64,000 nt of DNA from positions 1 through 64,000 of the forward strand of contig VBKI01000052.1 of NCBI GenBank assembly GCA_005879535.1, written 5' to 3'. The DNA is from Deltaproteobacteria bacterium (GTDB lineage Bacteria > Myxococcota > Myxococcia > Myxococcales > 40CM-4-68-19). The notes under the pieces were generated by a model. The model did not search any database. It saw nothing but the letters and a program-made list of their open reading frames with translations, and was not told where the DNA came from. Shown here in pieces: positions 522 to 11,599 of the stretch. The translations under genes were made by a program, and so were the position numbers. Numbering within the stretch: the stretch's first letter is position 1; every line of letters starts with the position of its first letter.

Positions 522-875
522 ATGCTCCCCGGACTGCTGGCAGCGCTCCTCTGCGCCGCGACGGAGCCGCTGCCGTTGCCGTCTTCGGACGGCGGCGCGG
601 CCGCAGCCCAGGCGTCCAAGGCGCCACGCAAGAAACCGGGAAAGGCGGCGCTCACCGGCGTCCTCAACGTGAACCGCGCAACCGAGGCGGAGTTGCGGCT
701 TCTTCCGGGTATCGGGAAACGGCGGGCAGAGCTGATCGTCGCCCGCCGGCAGAAGAAGCCGTTCGCGACGGTCGACGAGGTGGGCCGCATCAAAGGCATG
801 CGCGCGTTGGTGCAGCGGCTGCGATCGCGCCTCACCCTACAGGGGGACACGACCTTGCGTCCGCTCCGCCCTTGA
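522..875 (+). CDS. ComEA-like helix-hairpin-helix protein
   Basis: This 117-residue protein starts with a short hydrophobic leader (MLPGLLAALLCAATEP), so it is probably exported. A Pro/Lys/Ala-rich linker follows, then a tandem helix-hairpin-helix domain from about residue 45: LNVNRATEAELRLLPGIGKR and a second hairpin around VDEVGRIKGM. The Gly-Ile-Gly hairpin is the DNA-backbone contact of ComEA, the periplasmic DNA receptor in natural transformation. No other competence genes are nearby, so a role in DNA uptake is inferred from the fold only; a general periplasmic DNA-binding role is equally possible. It starts six bases after the stop of the preceding small gene. Confidence 0.8.
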   Translation: MLPGLLAALLCAATEPLPLPSSDGGAAAAQASKAPRKKPGKAALTGVLNVNRATEAELRLLPGIGKRRAELIVARRQKKPFATVDEVGRIKGMRALVQRLRSRLTLQGDTTLRPLRP

Positions 876-1145: not shown

Positions 1146-3053
1146 GTGCCGCCGTCCCGCACCTCCTGTCGTCGCCTCCTGCCCTTCGCGGTGCTGCTCG
1201 CGACCGTCGCGCGCGCGCAGGAGCCCGGCGAGACCATCGAGGTGGAGGGGAACCGCCCGGAGGCATCGCCTCGCGCGCCCGCGGCGCAGACGACGGCGAT
1301 CGACGTGCGCCAGTACGCAGGCGCGGTGCGGACCGTTTCCGAGTTGCTCGAGGCGGCGCCTGGCGTCACCGTGCATGCCCTTGGCGGTCCCGGCCAGACT
1401 GCGACCTTGTCGCTGCGCGGCGGCACGGCCGACCAGTCGGTGGTGCTGCTCGATGGCATCCCGCTGCAGGGTCCGGGAGGCGGCGCCATCGATCTCGCGA
1501 CGGTGCCCGCCACGTTGCTCGAGCGGATCACCGTCACCCGGGGTGTGGTCGGCGCGCAATTCGGCGCCGGAGCTCTCGGCGGGGTGGTCGAGCTGCAGCC
1601 GACCGTCGCGCATGGCAACAGCAGCCTCGGCGCCCAACTCTCGGCGGGATCGTTCGGAACCATGCAGGCCGCAGCGGACGGGACGGCGGCGCTCAATGAA
1701 GGGAGCGCCGTCGTGGCGGTGCAGGCCGATCGCACTGCAGGCGGATTCGAGTTTGCGCGCCAACTCACGCCGGAGATCCCGAATGCGCCGTATTACGGGT
1801 TCACCCGTCAGAACGACGACTCGAAGCGGCTCTCGGCGATGGCGCGGGTGGCGCAACCGCTGGGAGCAGCGGAGATCGATTTGCTGGTCCAGGGTTCCGC
1901 GGGCGAGCGCGGGCTGCCCGGACCGGCGGCAGCGACCACGAGCCGGTCGCGCGAGCTCGATGCAGGAGGTCTTGCGGGCGTTCGTGTGCGCGGAACCGGC
2001 GACGGCTCCGCGTGGTCGGTCCGGACCTGGGGGCGCCTCGACCGGATCGAGCTGCGCGGGGTGCAGTCATTCGGGGATTGCGACGATGGTTCGCCGGAAT
2101 GTCCACGTCTCGACCAGCGATCGTCGTCCGGCGCGGCGGAAGCAGAGTACGGATTTCTCGCCGCGCGCAGCCACTGGCTCCGCGCTTCGCTACAGGCGCG
2201 AGAGGACCGGGTCCACGGCGGCGACACCGGCTCGCATGATCGCGTCTTGTTGTCCGCCGCGCTCACTGACGACATCGCATCCGGCGGTGGATTTTCCTTT
2301 CACCCTGCCCTCCGCGTCGAGCGCGTCGGCTCCAAGACCGGCGTGAGCCCGGCGGTGACGGCATCGTGGCGTCCCGCGAACAGCGAATCGCTGGAGCTGC
2401 GCGCAGGCTCGGGATTGTCGTTCCGCGCCCCTACGTTCACCGAGCTGTATCTGGAGCGGAACGGCGTCGCCGCGAACCCCGGCTTGCGGCCGGAGCGCGC
2501 GTGGTCCATCGATGCGGGCGGAACCTGGCGCAACGGCGGCGCTGCGATCTCCGCCGGCGTCTTCTGGTCTGCTTACCGCGACCTCATCGTCTACGAGTTC
2601 TACCCCCCCGCGAAAGTGAAACCGTTCAACGTCGGCGGCGCGCGGATTGCCGGAGCCGAGCTGCAAGGCTCGGTGACGCTGCCAGCGGGGTTCCGGATCG
2701 ACGCGGCGTACAGCTTCCTGCACACGGTCAACCTGCGCGAAGGCGACCAGGAGGGGCACAGCCTTTCATATCGCCCCCCGCATCGGGTGTTCGTACGGGG
2801 CGCGCGTCGAGGCGACCGCCTCGAAGGCTACTTCGAAGGCCGCTTCACCTCCGCCATGCCGCGCAATCCGTACGACACGGCGGCGCAGGCGGCCCAGCTC
2901 GTGTTCAACGCCGGTCTCGGGGTCCGTGCCGCGGGCCCGCTCTGGCTCGATTTCGAAGCGAAGAACCTTTTCGACGACCGCACCCTGGAGGACGTCTTTC
3001 AGTATCCACTGCCGGGGTTCTCGATTGCGGTCATCGCGCGCGCCCGCCTCTGA
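1146..3053 (+). CDS. btuB: TonB-dependent cobalamin receptor BtuB
   Basis: This is a 635-residue outer-membrane gated channel that would move vitamin B12 into the periplasm using TonB energy. A cleavable signal peptide ends near residue 24 (ATVARA/QE), and a TonB-box-like ETIEV follows immediately. The plug domain runs from about 40 to 150 (SLRGGTADQSVVLLDGIPLQ, then ERITVTRGVVGAQFGAGALGG), and the rest is a beta-barrel of alternating residues. The GTG at 1146 is the only start that fits the riboswitch leader and signal peptide. The length is normal for BtuB. The cobalamin riboswitch and the downstream btuFCD genes make B12 or another corrinoid the substrate. Confidence 0.93.
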   Translation: MPPSRTSCRRLLPFAVLLATVARAQEPGETIEVEGNRPEASPRAPAAQTTAIDVRQYAGAVRTVSELLEAAPGVTVHALGGPGQTATLSLRGGTADQSVVLLDGIPLQGPGGGAIDLATVPATLLERITVTRGVVGAQFGAGALGGVVELQPTVAHGNSSLGAQLSAGSFGTMQAAADGTAALNEGSAVVAVQADRTAGGFEFARQLTPEIPNAPYYGFTRQNDDSKRLSAMARVAQPLGAAEIDLLVQGSAGERGLPGPAAATTSRSRELDAGGLAGVRVRGTGDGSAWSVRTWGRLDRIELRGVQSFGDCDDGSPECPRLDQRSSSGAAEAEYGFLAARSHWLRASLQAREDRVHGGDTGSHDRVLLSAALTDDIASGGGFSFHPALRVERVGSKTGVSPAVTASWRPANSESLELRAGSGLSFRAPTFTELYLERNGVAANPGLRPERAWSIDAGGTWRNGGAAISAGVFWSAYRDLIVYEFYPPAKVKPFNVGGARIAGAELQGSVTLPAGFRIDAAYSFLHTVNLREGDQEGHSLSYRPPHRVFVRGARRGDRLEGYFEGRFTSAMPRNPYDTAAQAAQLVFNAGLGVRAAGPLWLDFEAKNLFDDRTLEDVFQYPLPGFSIAVIARARL

Positions 3054-3067
3054 CCAAGGAGACCTGC

Positions 3068-4186
3068 ATGAAGCGCATCGTTCCAGTCCTGATCCTCGTC
3101 ACCGCCTGCGGCGGCGCGAACAAGCCTCCTCCGGTGCCGACTATTGCGCTGCCGTCCGGCGACGCCCTCAAGCCCTTCGATCCTGCGCACCCGACGTTCG
3201 CCCACCCAGCGGGTGTCGCTGGATTCGCAGACAAGGTCTATGTCGCGTTGGGAAACAGTGATTCGCCGACCTTCAGGCCTTCCGGGCCCGGCATGCTCGC
3301 CGTCGTCGTCCCGAGCACCGCGAACGTGCCCGTCATCGATTTGGGGGGCAGCACCGGGAAGCAGTGCCTCAGCCCGGGGTTCGTGCGCGCCGCCGGCAAT
3401 TACCTCTACGTCAGCTGCACGGGCGCATTCGGGTCGACCACCGGGGCCGCGATCGTCGAGGTAGATCCTGCAGGGAATGGGTCGGTGAGACGGGCGCTGT
3501 CGATCGGCGTCAATCCGAATGGTGTCGCCGTGGCCGGCAACCGCGTCTGGTACGGTGACACCTCCTCCGATCGAATCTTCCCGGTCGATCTTGCGACGTT
3601 CACTTCCGCCGGCGACCCGATCGCGCTCGGGTGCCCGCAGGGAAGCGACCCGATGAGCGCGTTCCGCTACATCCCCGACGTCGCGCCCATGGGAACGGAC
3701 CTGTACGCGCTCTGCGCCTCCGACATCGGGGGGAAATTGTACCGCGTCGACCCGGGCACAGGCGCCATCAAGTCGCAAGTGTCGGTCGGGCCGATCGCGA
3801 CCGAGCTGACGAGCACCGCCGACGGCCGGATCGCGGTCGTCAACTCCGGCGACAGCACGGTCATGCTCATCACACCGACGAGCACGGGTCTCTCGGCGCA
3901 GGTGGCGCTGACGCTGCCCAATACCCAGAACCTTCAGGACATCCGCGCGCGCGATCATTTCCTCTTCACGGTGGCGTCGCAGACGAATACCGTGCAGAAG
4001 ATCGACCTCACCGCGCAGGGCGGCCCGAAAGTGGTCGCGGAGGCCAACGTGGGCGACGGCGCGAACCCCTGGAACGTCTATCCTCTCGACGACGACCAGG
4101 TCATCGTGAGCAATCTGCTGACCAACAATCTCGTCGCGATCACGAGCACCTGCGGTGCGGGCAAGGTCTGCTGGACGGTGCGCTGA
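3068..4186 (+). CDS. Beta-propeller lipoprotein, BtuG-like, in the B12 operon
   Basis: This 372-residue protein has a lipoprotein signal ending in VTAC, with Cys14 as the likely lipidation site. The mature part reads as YncE/YVTN-type propeller blades, for example GVAVAGNRVWYGDTSSDRIF and ELTSTADGRIAVVNSGDSTV. It lies 14 bases after btuB and its TGA overlaps the btuF ATG, so it is cotranscribed with B12 uptake genes. In Bacteroides, BtuG is a beta-propeller surface lipoprotein encoded beside btuB that captures B12 with very high affinity. Position, lipidation and fold match that role here; direct homology to BtuG is not shown. Alternatively it could scaffold or regulate the receptor. Confidence 0.75.
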   Translation: MKRIVPVLILVTACGGANKPPPVPTIALPSGDALKPFDPAHPTFAHPAGVAGFADKVYVALGNSDSPTFRPSGPGMLAVVVPSTANVPVIDLGGSTGKQCLSPGFVRAAGNYLYVSCTGAFGSTTGAAIVEVDPAGNGSVRRALSIGVNPNGVAVAGNRVWYGDTSSDRIFPVDLATFTSAGDPIALGCPQGSDPMSAFRYIPDVAPMGTDLYALCASDIGGKLYRVDPGTGAIKSQVSVGPIATELTSTADGRIAVVNSGDSTVMLITPTSTGLSAQVALTLPNTQNLQDIRARDHFLFTVASQTNTVQKIDLTAQGGPKVVAEANVGDGANPWNVYPLDDDQVIVSNLLTNNLVAITSTCGAGKVCWTVR

Positions 4187-4980
4187 TGCTGCTTGTTGCC
4201 CTGCTGCTCGCGGCGGGGCCACGGCAGCATCTCGGCCCGCCGGTGCCCGCCGAGGTCCGGCGGGTGGTGACGGTGGCCCCGGCGTTGTCGGAGATCGTGC
4301 TCGCCCTCGGCGCCGGAGAGCGCCTCGCCGGCGTCACGCGCTTCGACGACGACCCGCGCGAGCGCGACCTTCCCCGGATCGGGGGCTACAACGATCCGCA
4401 GCCCGAAGCGGTCCTGGCGGTGAAGCCGGATCTCATCCTGGCGGAGCCCGCGCCGGAGAACAGGGGCCCGGTGGAGACGTTGGCGCGGCTCGGCATCGCG
4501 GTGGAGACGTTTCCCCTCTCCACCGTGGGGCACATCGAGGCCGCCATCTCGGCCATCGCGGGCTTCCTCGGCGTGCCGGAGCGAGGGCTCGCGCTGAACG
4601 CGGACCTCGAGCGCGCCCGGCAGCAGGCGCGGAAGGCCGCAGCGGGACGCAAGAGGACCCGCGCCCTGCTCGTCTTCGGACTCGATCCGCTGGTGGTCGC
4701 CGGTCCCGGCGGATTCGCCGGAGAGTTGCTCGCCGACGCGGGAGGCGAGAATGCCGCGGGAGACAATCCGTTGCCCTTCTTCCGGCTCAGCGCCGAGGCC
4801 GCGGTGCGCGCGGCGCCCGAAGCGATCGTGCTCTGTGGTATCGACGCTCCGCCCGGCCGCTCTCCCATCCCCGGACTGGAGAAGACCCGCGTGACCACGC
4901 TCCGATCGACCGCGCTCCTGCATCCCGGACCGCGCCTCCCGGAGGCGCTCTCCGACCTCGCCGCCGCGCTCCGGAGATGA
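4186..4980 (+). CDS. btuF: Periplasmic cobalamin-binding protein BtuF
   Basis: This 264-residue exported protein begins with a short Sec signal (MLLVALLLAAGP) without a lipobox. It belongs to the TroA/helical-backbone family of substrate-binding proteins that deliver B12 or iron chelates to FecCD-type permeases. Typical family stretches are VVTVAPALSEIVLALGAGER at the N-terminus, KPDLILAEPAPENR, and a C-terminal lobe starting near ALLVFGLDPLVVAGPGGFAG. The ATG at 4186 overlaps the stop of the propeller lipoprotein, and the stop overlaps the btuC ATG. The ABC genes downstream and the riboswitch upstream support cobalamin rather than iron-siderophore as ligand. Confidence 0.88.
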   Translation: MLLVALLLAAGPRQHLGPPVPAEVRRVVTVAPALSEIVLALGAGERLAGVTRFDDDPRERDLPRIGGYNDPQPEAVLAVKPDLILAEPAPENRGPVETLARLGIAVETFPLSTVGHIEAAISAIAGFLGVPERGLALNADLERARQQARKAAAGRKRTRALLVFGLDPLVVAGPGGFAGELLADAGGENAAGDNPLPFFRLSAEAAVRAAPEAIVLCGIDAPPGRSPIPGLEKTRVTTLRSTALLHPGPRLPEALSDLAAALRR

Positions 4981-5999
4981 AGCGCTCGGCGGCCGCGCGC
5001 GCGGCGCTGGCGGTCGCGGTCCTCATCCCCGCGGTGGCCATATCCGCGATCGTCGGGCTCTCGACAGGAGCCGGAGCGCTCTCACTGCGCGATGCCCTCG
5101 CGGGCCGCGAGCCGGATGCGACGGTGCTCTTCCGGCTGCGCGTTCCCCGGGTCATTCTGGCTGCGGAGGTGGGCGCCGCGCTTTCCGTTGCCGGCGTCGC
5201 CCTGCAAGCGCTTTTGCGCAATCCCCTCGCCGACCCCTTCGTCTTCGGCCTCTCCGGTGGCGCGGCCATCGGCACCGCCCTGGTGACGGTGGCCTCCGGC
5301 ACCGCGCTCGGCGTCGCGGCCAGCTCCGCGGCGTCGTTCGTCGGCGTCCTTCCCGCGCAGTTGGCGGCGGTAGCGGGAGCGATGGCCGCCGCGCTGCTCG
5401 TCTTCACGCTCGGGCGCGCGCGCGGCCAGCTCGAGCCTGCCCGGGCGCTGCTGGTGGGCGTCGTCTTCAACTCCTTCGCTTCCGCGCTGGTGCTTTCGGT
5501 GGAAGCGGTCCTCCGGCCCGATCAGATGCAGGCGGTCTCCCTCTGGCTGGCGGGCGCTCTCGGGTACGAGCCGATGCCCCTGCTCACCGGCGCCGCGCTC
5601 GCCCTGGTGGTGCCGGCGCTGGTGCTCGTGGCCCTCGCGGGACGGCTCAATCTGCTCGCGCTGGGCGACGAGGGCGCCGCCGCCCTCGGCGTGGACGTGG
5701 GCCGCACGCGCATTTTGGCCTTCTTCGCCGCGAGCGCAGCCGTGGGCATCGCGGTGGCGTTCACGGGCTTGGTCGGATTCGTCGGCCTGATCGTGCCGCA
5801 CGCCGTCCGCCTGCTCACCGGTCCCGATCACCGGGTGGTGCTTCCTGCCTCCGCGCTTGGGGGAGCGGCCTTCCTGATCCTCGCAGATGCCCTCGCCCGC
5901 GTCCTCTTTCGCGGCCTCGGCGCGGAGCCGCCGGTCGGCGCCGTGACCGCCATCGTCGGAGCGCCGCTCTTCGTCCTCTTGATGCGGAGCCGCCGGTGA
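4977..5999 (+). CDS. btuC: Cobalamin ABC transporter permease BtuC
   Basis: This is a 340-residue FecCD-family inner-membrane permease with about ten hydrophobic segments. The hallmark N-terminal block is present (LRVPRVILAAEVGAALSVAG, then QALLRNPLADPFVFGLSGGA), as is the coupling region LGVDVGRTRI and the C-terminal VGFVGLIVPHAVRLLTGPDH. It pairs as a homodimer with the ATPase encoded next to it. The ATG at 4977 overlaps the btuF stop (ATGA), and its own stop overlaps the GTG of btuD, so BtuF, BtuC and BtuD are translationally coupled. Confidence 0.92.
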   Translation: MKRSAAARAALAVAVLIPAVAISAIVGLSTGAGALSLRDALAGREPDATVLFRLRVPRVILAAEVGAALSVAGVALQALLRNPLADPFVFGLSGGAAIGTALVTVASGTALGVAASSAASFVGVLPAQLAAVAGAMAAALLVFTLGRARGQLEPARALLVGVVFNSFASALVLSVEAVLRPDQMQAVSLWLAGALGYEPMPLLTGAALALVVPALVLVALAGRLNLLALGDEGAAALGVDVGRTRILAFFAASAAVGIAVAFTGLVGFVGLIVPHAVRLLTGPDHRVVLPASALGGAAFLILADALARVLFRGLGAEPPVGAVTAIVGAPLFVLLMRSRR

Positions 6000-6781
6000 C
6001 GTTGCTCGAAGGCCGCGAGCTGCGCTACCGGCATTCCGCAGGGGCCTCGGAGGCGGTCGCGGGGGCCTCGCTCGCCGTGGCGCGCGGTGAGGTGGTCGGC
6101 GTGATCGGGCCCAACGCCGCCGGAAAGAGCACCCTCGCGCGCCTCTGCTGCGGGCTGTTGCCGGCCCAGCACGGCACGCTGCTGCTGCAGGGCGCGCCGC
6201 TGGCCAGGCTCTCGCGCCGCGACCGCGCCCGCCGGGTCGCATTCCTGTCCCAGAATCCGCCGCACGATCTCTCCTTCACCGCCCGCGAGGTTGCCCTGAT
6301 GGGGCGCGCGCCCCACCTCGGCCTCTGGTCCCTGGAGGGACCGCACGATCTGGAGCGCGCGAACGCGGCGCTCGAGGAAGTCGACGCGCTGGATCTCGCC
6401 GATCGTCCGGTCTCCCAGCTTTCGGGCGGAGAGCGCCAGCGCGTCTTTCTCGCCCGCGCGTTCGCGCAGGAGGCGGCGCTGCTGGTGCTGGACGAACCGA
6501 CCGCGGCTCTCGATCTCGCGCACCAGGTCCTGCTGGTGAACGCCCTCCGCCGCAGGGCCCGCGACGGCGGCGGCGCGCTCCTCGTGCTGCACGATCTTGC
6601 GCTCGCCGGCGCCGCCTGCGACCGGCTCGTCTTGATGCACGTCGGCCGGGTGGTGGCGGAGGGCGCGCCCGCCGACGTCTTGCGCCCCGAGGTCCTCGAG
6701 CCCGTCTACGGAACGGAAGTCGAGGTGATGGCAAATCCGGCGACCGGACAGCCGCTGGTCGCTCCGCGCATCTCGCGGTGA
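5996..6781 (+). CDS. btuD: Cobalamin ABC transporter ATPase BtuD
   Basis: This 261-residue ATPase powers the BtuC channel. Visible motifs are Walker A GPNAAGKST (residues 38-46), a Q-loop glutamine in FLSQNPPHDLSF, signature LSGGERQRVFLARAF, Walker B LLVLDEPTAALD and the switch histidine in VLHDLALAG. The C-terminal stretch DVLRPEVLEPVYGTEVEV is usual for the FecE/BtuD/HemV group. It starts with GTG inside a GTGA overlap with btuC. It is the last gene of the B12 operon; the next gene is on the other strand with its stop only three bases away. Confidence 0.92.
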   Translation: MTLLEGRELRYRHSAGASEAVAGASLAVARGEVVGVIGPNAAGKSTLARLCCGLLPAQHGTLLLQGAPLARLSRRDRARRVAFLSQNPPHDLSFTAREVALMGRAPHLGLWSLEGPHDLERANAALEEVDALDLADRPVSQLSGGERQRVFLARAFAQEAALLVLDEPTAALDLAHQVLLVNALRRRARDGGGALLVLHDLALAGAACDRLVLMHVGRVVAEGAPADVLRPEVLEPVYGTEVEVMANPATGQPLVAPRISR

Positions 6782-9322: not shown

Positions 9323-11599
9323 GTGGCGGAGGCAGGGCGGCGCGTCCTGGTTCCTCTCGGGCGCCGCACCGAAACCGGGATCGTCGTCGGTCCCGCCCAG
9401 CCGCAGGAGGAGGTGCGCGACGCCATCCGGCTGCTCGACGAAGCTCCGCTCCTGACTCCCGAGATCGTCGGCCTCGCGCGGTGGGCGGCGGCGCACTACC
9501 TCGCTCCATTGGGACCCGCGTTGAAAGCGGCGCTCCCGCCCGGAATGGACGTCCGCGACGTCTTGATTCCAAGGCTGACGGATGCGGGGCGGCAGGCGCT
9601 CGAGGGAGGGCAGCTCGATCTTCCGGGGCAGGAGGAGGAGCTGCGCCGCGCGCTGCGGAAGGTGGTCGCCGGGACGAAGCTGGCGCGGGCGCATCTCGGC
9701 GATCTGGCCAAGCGCGGCCTGGTGACGTTGGCGCGCGAGGAAGCGCGGCCGCGGGTGGCGGAACAGCTCGTCGAGATGGCCGCGGCGGTGCCTCCTGCGT
9801 CGGCGGAGTCGCCGCGCCGGGCTCCGCGGCAGGCGGAGGTGCTGGCCTGGCTCCTCGCGCGAGGCGAGGCCGTCCCGGTCGAGGAAGTGGTCGCCGCGTT
9901 TCCGCGGGCGCGGCCGCATTTGCGCGCGCTCGCCGCTCGCGGGCTCGTCCGGCTCGAACGGGTCCCCCCCGGGCCGGCGCGGGTCGTCGAAGGTCCCTGG
10001 GGAGATCAGCGGCACGATCCGACGGACGCGCAGGCGCACGCCTTGCGGGAGCTCAGCGCGGCCACCGATGCGCGGGTGTTCGCTCCGTTCCTGCTCCACG
10101 GCGTGACCGGGAGCGGAAAGACCTGGGTCTATCTCGAGGCCATCGCGCACGCGCGCGCCAGTGGGCTCGGCGCGTTGGCTCTGGTCCCGGAGATCGCGCT
10201 GACGCCGCAGCTCGCCGGCCGTTTCCGCGCCCGGTTCGGTGGGGACGTCGCGGTGCTCCACTCCGGGCTGTCCGCGGGCGAGCGCGTCGCCGAGTGGCAC
10301 CGGGTGCGCGACGGCCGTGCCGGGATCGTGGTCGGCGCCCGCAGCGCGGTCTGGGCACCCGTACGGCAGCTCGGGATCATCGTCGTCGACGAGGAGCACG
10401 AGCCTTCGTACAAGCAGGAAGACCGGCTGCGGTACCACGCCCGCGACCTCGCTCTGGTCCGCGCGCAGCGGGCAGGCGCGGTGGCGGTGCTCGGCAGCGC
10501 GACGCCGTCGCTGGAGACGCTGCGGCGCGCGCAGGAAGGGAAGCTGCGCGTCCTGCGACTGCCGGAGCGCGTCGAGGCCCGGCCGCAGCCGCCCGTCACG
10601 GTGGTGAGAAGGCCTGTCTCCGACCAGCTCTTGACGGCGGACCTGTCGGCGGCGTTGCGCGAGACGGTCTCGCGCGGAGAACAGGCCATCCTCTTCCTCA
10701 ACCGCAGGGGGCATACGCGTATCCTGCTCTGCTCCGCCTGCGGCGCCGCCGTCGGGTGTCCCAACTGCTCGGTCGCGCTGGTGCTCCACCGCGCCGGCAA
10801 GGAGCGCCTGCGCTGCCATCTCTGCGGACACGACGAGGCGCCTCGCCGCGCCTGTGCCGCCTGCGGCGCGGTCAAGCTCGCTCCGCTCGGGGGCGGGACG
10901 GAGAAGGTCGAGGAGCAACTCGAGGCCGTGGTGCCGCAGGCGCGCGTGGCGCGGCTCGATCGCGACGCCGCGGGCGGCCCGGGGCAGGCAGCCGCGGTGC
11001 TTGCGCAATTCGCCCGCCGGCAGATCGACGTGCTCGTCGGAACGCAGATGGTTGCCAAGGGCCACGATTTTCCCGGCGTGACGCTGGTGGGGGTGCTCGA
11101 CGCCGACGGGCCGCTTCACCTGCCGGATTTCCGCGCGGCGGAGCGTTGCATCCAGCTCCTCTCCCAGGTCTCGGGCCGGGCGGGTCGCGGCGATGTGCCC
11201 GGGCGGGTGCTGGTGCAGGCGTTCAAGCCCGATGCGGTCGCGCTCGACTACGACGCGTTCGCGGCAGAAGAGCTGCGACGTCGGGAGAGGCTGCGCTTTC
11301 CGCCGTTCGTGCGCCTCGCCGCGGTCCGATTGTCGGGAAATTCGGAAGTGCGCGTGCGCGGCGCCGCGGAACGCGCCGCGTCGGCGGCGCGCCGGTTCGC
11401 ATCGGGAGGCGACGCGCTCGATGTCCTCGGCCCGGCGCCGGCGCCGCTGGCGAAGGTGCGTGGAAAGCATCGCTGGCAGCTGTTGCTCAGGGCGCCAGAC
11501 CACGCGCCGCTCCACCGCGTCGGGCGCGCCCTGCAGGCCTCCCATCGGGTGCCGGGTGTGCAACTGGCGGTCGACGTGGACCCGGTGGCGCTGCTTTGA
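9323..11599 (+). CDS. priA: Primosomal helicase PriA
   Basis: PriA is the superfamily 2 helicase that restarts stalled replication forks. Visible are Walker A GVTGSGKTWVYLEA, the DEEH box in VVDEEHEPSYKQED, the Cys-rich zinc region (CSACGAAVGCPNC, CHLCG and CAACG) and the helicase C-terminal block LVGTQMVAKGHDFPGVTLVG. From the first legal start, GTG 9323, the protein has 758 residues. The conserved N-terminal strand (YAVALNVPAAEGIFTYRI) lies upstream in the same frame at about 9254, where no ATG, GTG or TTG exists. The true start is therefore a rare codon (ATT 9236 or CTG 9251), or one base is missing near 9248. Confidence 0.93.
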   Translation: MAEAGRRVLVPLGRRTETGIVVGPAQPQEEVRDAIRLLDEAPLLTPEIVGLARWAAAHYLAPLGPALKAALPPGMDVRDVLIPRLTDAGRQALEGGQLDLPGQEEELRRALRKVVAGTKLARAHLGDLAKRGLVTLAREEARPRVAEQLVEMAAAVPPASAESPRRAPRQAEVLAWLLARGEAVPVEEVVAAFPRARPHLRALAARGLVRLERVPPGPARVVEGPWGDQRHDPTDAQAHALRELSAATDARVFAPFLLHGVTGSGKTWVYLEAIAHARASGLGALALVPEIALTPQLAGRFRARFGGDVAVLHSGLSAGERVAEWHRVRDGRAGIVVGARSAVWAPVRQLGIIVVDEEHEPSYKQEDRLRYHARDLALVRAQRAGAVAVLGSATPSLETLRRAQEGKLRVLRLPERVEARPQPPVTVVRRPVSDQLLTADLSAALRETVSRGEQAILFLNRRGHTRILLCSACGAAVGCPNCSVALVLHRAGKERLRCHLCGHDEAPRRACAACGAVKLAPLGGGTEKVEEQLEAVVPQARVARLDRDAAGGPGQAAAVLAQFARRQIDVLVGTQMVAKGHDFPGVTLVGVLDADGPLHLPDFRAAERCIQLLSQVSGRAGRGDVPGRVLVQAFKPDAVALDYDAFAAEELRRRERLRFPPFVRLAAVRLSGNSEVRVRGAAERAASAARRFASGGDALDVLGPAPAPLAKVRGKHRWQLLLRAPDHAPLHRVGRALQASHRVPGVQLAVDVDPVALL

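Follow-up and report, generated by a model that had tools for sequence, protein, structure and literature searches.

Introduction

The closest known system to the locus described here is BtuG of the Bacteroidota, represented by BtuG1-3 of B. thetaiotaomicron (PDB 3DSM, 8BMY, 8OKV, and 8PTD). Its defining traits include very tight binding of corrinoids, exposure at the cell surface, and a stable complex with BtuB. BtuG has been described as exclusive to Bacteroidetes (PMC6143338), and lipoprotein-capped TonB transporters are likewise seemingly exclusive to that group (PMC10404256). BtuG contacts B12 through the NEGNFQYGN loop of blade 1 and through Trp194, Tyr239, Trp272, and Tyr316 (PMC10404256). 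The surface B12 binders BtuH and DUF4465/BtuJ are also accessory lipoproteins of corrinoid loci, but their folds differ from the propeller; DUF4465 has been reported from several phyla, Myxococcota included (PMC13398666). Surface-type B12 binders outside Bacteroidota are hence not wholly unprecedented, whereas the arrangement of a propeller linked to btuB appears to be undescribed: our literature search, which covered few subscription papers, returned no account of BtuG-like propellers in Myxococcota.

Related propellers are known from other settings. The YncE/YVTN surface-layer propellers (PDB 3VGZ and 1L0Q) belong to the same propeller superfamily as the protein studied here, but YncE is a soluble periplasmic protein and neither YncE nor the YVTN propellers are tied to btuB. 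The zinc metallochaperone AztD (PDB 6N01 and 6CMK) is likewise a propeller paired with the binding protein of an ABC importer, yet it serves a zinc system without a TonB receptor or a corrinoid riboswitch. Here, we describe a btuB-linked propeller lipoprotein from across a phylum of predatory soil bacteria, in which cultured species also have candidate genes. We regard it as a BtuG-like accessory lipoprotein that occurs phylum-wide and has been permuted recurrently.

A propeller gene in a riboswitch-controlled corrinoid operon

In the window, by which we mean the whole stretch of 64,000 nucleotides that was analyzed, an operon on the forward strand runs from a cobalamin riboswitch through btuB, the propeller gene, btuF, and btuC to btuD. 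The riboswitch aptamer (RF00174; 909 to 1113) scores 81.5 bits in Rfam (E = 1.6e-18; gathering score 31.5). Downstream of it, btuB (1146 to 3053) encodes a TonB-dependent corrinoid receptor of 635 amino acids with Pfam Plug and TonB_dep_Rec_b-barrel domains; its best PDB matches are to E. coli BtuB (1.9e-18), as are six of its seven matches below 1e-10, and its best NCBIfam match is TIGR01779, with a score below the TIGR01779 cut-off. The propeller gene (3068 to 4186, with ATG at 3068 and the stop codon TGA at 4184 to 4186) encodes 372 amino acids, and an AAGGAG Shine-Dalgarno sequence can be read ahead of it at 3056 to 3061. Its stop codon shares one base with the start of btuF at 4186 (TGATG), confirming the sequence-only reading, which had placed the gene between btuB and btuF with an overlap into the latter. 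The btuF gene (4186 to 4980; Pfam Peripla_BP_2) encodes the periplasmic corrinoid-binding protein, with BtuF as its best PDB matches (2.3e-19), and is followed by the FecCD-type ABC permease gene btuC (4977 to 5999; Pfam 7.8e-74) and the ABC ATPase gene btuD (5996 to 6781; Pfam ABC_tran 9.1e-32).

We assign the operon to corrinoids because of the receptor, the binding protein, and the riboswitch taken together, and the earlier proposal of a riboswitch-controlled B12 operon thereby holds. From this genomic context, an involvement of the propeller in corrinoid uptake is close to certain. Since only 33 bases separate the end of the aptamer from the btuB start codon, the spacing suggests that the riboswitch acts on translation. 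Directly 5' of the riboswitch lies a ComEA-like helix-hairpin-helix gene (522 to 875, forward strand), whose position is kept in the loci of many relatives (e.g., L033-L040, L042-L043, L096, L098, and L100-L106).

Linkage of the propeller to btuB in the order and beyond

The gene is present in all 12 of the 12 genomes of the window's family. We read 52 loci around propeller matches, picked by propeller match and not by linkage, which span the order plus another class of the phylum; every one of them has btuB immediately upstream in the same orientation. Both counts together place the conservation far above chance. A cobalamin riboswitch is also found in 31 of the 37 linked loci scanned; in three of the remaining six, the contig starts at or just before btuB. 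At L048, L049, and L099, where the btuB flank is present, no cobalamin riboswitch was found near btuB and the propeller at the gathering threshold, and another kind of regulation possibly operates. The co-occurrence with btuB and cobalamin riboswitches that the sequence-only reading had put up for checking is thus seen in relatives, and neither of two outcomes that it had named as refuting, a fold other than a propeller (see below) and an unconserved btuB linkage, occurred.

Four genomes whose propeller was missed or barely found by the first profile carry a diverged propeller between btuB and btuF, with riboswitches. The absence of the gene from family f6, as suggested by a first tblastn survey, was likewise rejected, as a profile search and synteny show a diverged copy. 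No propeller was detectable beside two btuB homologues from more distant genomes in the phylum (L242 and L243), and the linkage to btuB therefore holds almost throughout the order but not throughout the phylum. The genomic survey of propellers covered Myxococcota and Bacteroidota, and a tblastn search against plasmids returned no propeller match.

Several loci depart from the common arrangement. At L109, a single btuB is flanked by two propeller genes (233 to 1255 and 3714 to 4673), and L051, L053, and L242 each hold two cobalamin riboswitches within about 10 kb, those of L242 lying on opposite strands about 60 bases apart. L242 also contains four Acido-Lenti-1 RNA copies in less than 10 kb around the btuB locus (4412 to 4456, 2052 to 2097, 9550 to 9594, and 1943 to 1987, minus strand). 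In family f25 (L247 and L248), a diverged propeller stands ahead of btuF, and upstream of it we found a very weak btuB match in L248 and none in L247; the f25 receptor may belong to another TonB-receptor group.

Fold, lipobox, and conserved cysteines

The protein begins with a signal peptide and a lipobox (3068 to 3109), which reads V-T-A-C14 and continues C-G-G-A-N-K-P, so that lipidation is expected at Cys14, with Gly at +2. This cysteine is invariant in 18 relatives, which bears out the lipobox noted earlier and sets the protein apart from YncE, whose signal is cleaved and non-lipidated. Under the lipoprotein sorting rule, Gly at +2 predicts the outer membrane at most. AlphaFold2, run on the alignment of the protein with the 18 relatives (A1), predicts a seven-bladed beta-propeller at residues 25 to 359 (3140 to 4144; pLDDT 91.5, pTM 0.89), with strands that form seven repeats of up to four strands each, and strand 25-27 probably closes blade 7 in this model. 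What had been a guess at a propeller is hence substantiated at the level of the predicted fold, while Pfam reports DUF6923 alone, below threshold, and no match to DUF4465, which is also without a match in 60 relatives of the window genome. Two cysteine pairs are invariant in 18 sequences, C100 and C117 in blade 2 (3365 to 3418) and C189 and C216 in blade 4 (3632 to 3715), and we infer that both form disulfides.

Recurrent circular permutation of the ring

Aligning the profile of the proteins of family f4 (A2), which are presumably of Myxococcaceae type and are named so here, with the A1 profile yielded two blocks in swapped order: A2 residues 330 to 535 correspond to A1 37 to 226 (4.6e-32), and A2 155 to 327 to A1 225 to 383 (1.1e-22). 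Mapping all loci revealed four circular registers of the ring at one syntenic position. In register i (families f1, f5, f8, and part of f3), the ring opens near window residue 20. Register ii, which comprises f4, f2, f6, f7, the rest of f3, and, on account of its match to the A2 profile, f9, opens near 209 and closes near 207. Family f11, outside the class, represents register iii, which runs from near 250 round to near 247, and f10 represents register iv, which runs from near 87 to 99 round to near 84. Where the match is good, both blocks taken together account for the whole ring and no blade occurs twice. Representatives of all four registers have a lipobox ahead of the propeller, even though the blade next to it differs.

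The two conserved cysteine pairs are kept in all registers, with C406 and C423 as the invariant counterparts of C100 and C117 in the permuted relatives of A2. Register ii mostly carries Cys-rich Stig1-like repeats between lipid and ring, and its cut falls between C189 and C216, so that this pair would clamp the two ends of the chain to each other. On a tree of the 56 linked BtuB proteins, six register changes are needed, compared to 20.7 for shuffled labels; this is a quick tree with some long branches, and a few of its rows were called register ii from partial matches. Because in family f3, on the starred branches of this tree, register i is nested inside register ii, register i probably arose more than once. 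Repeated circular permutation can thus be traced here within a single orthologous gene.

Relation to BtuG and to other propellers

The window protein has in common with BtuG a seven-bladed propeller, a lipobox, and a gene placed beside btuB under a corrinoid riboswitch; unlike BtuG, the Myxococcota propellers occur in four circular registers, and the window-type proteins are much poorer in Trp and Tyr and less strongly negative in charge. In Foldseek searches of the PDB, the permuted, Myxococcaceae-type form has BtuG3 and BtuG of B. uniformis as its top matches (3.8e-11 and 4.3e-11), and its profile has BtuG1 as its top PDB sequence matches, albeit weakly (E = 0.003). The window-type profile matches BtuG3 at 1.3e-5, with C189 and C216 aligned to two BtuG cysteines. 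For the window model itself, Foldseek put BtuG only at rank 17, with an archaeal S-layer propeller and virginiamycin lyase ahead of it; the structure comparison that had been put forward as a check therefore yielded the seven-bladed propeller but not BtuG as the nearest match.

The archaeal S-layer propeller 1L0Q is also the best PDB match of the window-type profile (1.4e-11), and thus the best single PDB match of the window form in both sequence and Foldseek searches. This match would suit a YVTN/YncE-type propeller of no special kind, whose gene is only carried along with the operon and whose role lies elsewhere. We nevertheless regard this reading as highly improbable, since btuB linkage was seen in 52 of 52 loci from distant families and twice within one genome.

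Published assignment to the BtuG family used BLASTP at 1e-10 (PMC6143338); here, we searched 32 of these genomes with a profile of 17 BtuGs, and nothing scored below 0.019. Conversely, the A1 profile, when run on Bacteroidota, was not selective for BtuG. The BtuG motifs NEGNFQYGNA, NCWSYQN, and DGGYEGSPYG are absent from the window-type proteins, and no B12-contact motifs are recognizable in A1, where the blade register of the BtuG alignment is ambiguous, so that other contacts may have been kept. The Bacteroidota lipoprotein export signal, acidic residues after the lipid cysteine, is absent from the window protein; the BtuGs compared read C-M-x-W-x-Y after the lipobox. We accordingly rejected the window protein as a member of the BtuG family, given the empty profile search and the lack of the export signal and the contact motifs. 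HHalign returned a probability of 98.7% against 33 diverse BtuGs and only 75.6% against a narrow BtuG set; the former value was rejected as proof of specific homology, as several blade registers score nearly equally.

The loop face with which BtuG binds B12 shows no elevated mean conservation in these proteins (p = 0.47), which we count against a conserved BtuG-type pocket; conservation differs at strand ends only (p = 0.02), a result on which we do not rely. We conclude that the protein belongs to the same propeller superfamily as BtuG and has BtuG among its nearest characterized relatives, while lying outside the BtuG family; its likeness to BtuG may be convergent. The sequence-only description as BtuG-like accordingly stands insofar as few solved structures come closer than BtuG, and none does for the permuted relatives, but does not extend to the BtuG sequence family. 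That the protein would work like BtuG is a conclusion drawn from context and anatomy, not from sequence.

A putative surface lid for BtuB

Our favored reading, to which we assign a probability of roughly 0.6, is that of an outer-membrane lipoprotein whose propeller would bind corrinoids and hand them on to BtuB in the manner of BtuG in Bacteroides. In its favor we count the btuB linkage and the riboswitches, the second copy and the expected need for external corrinoid (see below), the lipobox kept in every register, the confident propeller model, and the matches of both forms to BtuG; the empty BtuG profile search, the low Foldseek rank of BtuG for the window model, the absent motifs and export signal, and the mean conservation of the loop face count against it. 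At low intracellular corrinoid, the riboswitch would permit expression of the operon; the propeller, tethered by its lipid at Cys14, would capture scarce corrinoid at the cell surface and deliver it to the mouth of BtuB, whereupon BtuB, BtuF, and BtuCD would move it inward.

The position of the gene between btuB and btuF, with its overlap into the latter, also fits a lipoprotein on the inner leaflet of the outer membrane that would act as a periplasm-facing chaperone and carry corrinoid from the BtuB barrel to BtuF, as AztD does for zinc. For the permuted form, the top Foldseek matches include AztD, a weak match links the A1 profile to the E. coli propeller YncE (3VGZ; E = 0.0026, over a generic propeller stretch), and a surface-export signal is lacking. 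BtuF, however, normally takes corrinoid unaided, as established for E. coli, the BtuG structures rank above or beside AztD for the permuted form, and the long Cys-rich Stig1-like stalks of the Myxococcaceae-type form look extracellular, so that we consider such a chaperone unlikely, albeit the strongest of the competing explanations. Alternatively, the strict btuB linkage could reflect a structural partner of BtuB, i.e., an assembly or stability factor or a plug gate that binds no corrinoid, in line with BamB-type propellers among the fold matches and with the absence of the BtuG contact motifs. As E. coli BtuB is established to assemble without such a partner, and as the linkage in the loci read is specific to the corrinoid receptor, we find this role quite improbable.

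Returning to capture at the surface, we tentatively propose, at somewhat less than even odds, that Myxococcota invented the lipoprotein lid of BtuB independently of Bacteroidota and that its closed-ring gene was re-cut several times. Because the ring is closed, the tether could meet different blades while the B12-handling face and the partnership with btuB persist. If such an independent invention were true, lipoprotein-capped TonB receptors would not be exclusive to Bacteroidota. The four registers at one syntenic position further constitute a natural experiment on whether a lid mechanism depends on where the lipid hinge sits.

A second copy in a salvage operon

The window genome encodes a second propeller, 45% identical to the window protein, at locus L031. 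There, a riboswitch, btuB, and the propeller are followed by CobT, CobS, and a histidine phosphatase, then by BtuF-, BtuC-, and BtuD-type genes, and, beyond the BtuD-type gene, by a corrinoid adenosyltransferase, CobU, and a CbiP-type amidotransferase. L031 is thus a corrinoid salvage operon. A search of the window genome for CbiC, the single biosynthesis marker that we used for de novo corrin-ring synthesis, found none, and a B12-dependent methionine synthase is present; the genome should therefore need external corrinoid, and from this one marker together with the methionine synthase, we infer that the organism is a corrinoid scavenger. The salvage-type btuB-propeller locus is nearly identical in the genomes G000 and G006 (L031 and L032), with BtuB branch lengths of 0.004 and 0.007. 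These loci are far closer to each other than to those of other family members, with recent transfer, close kinship, or contamination as candidate causes.
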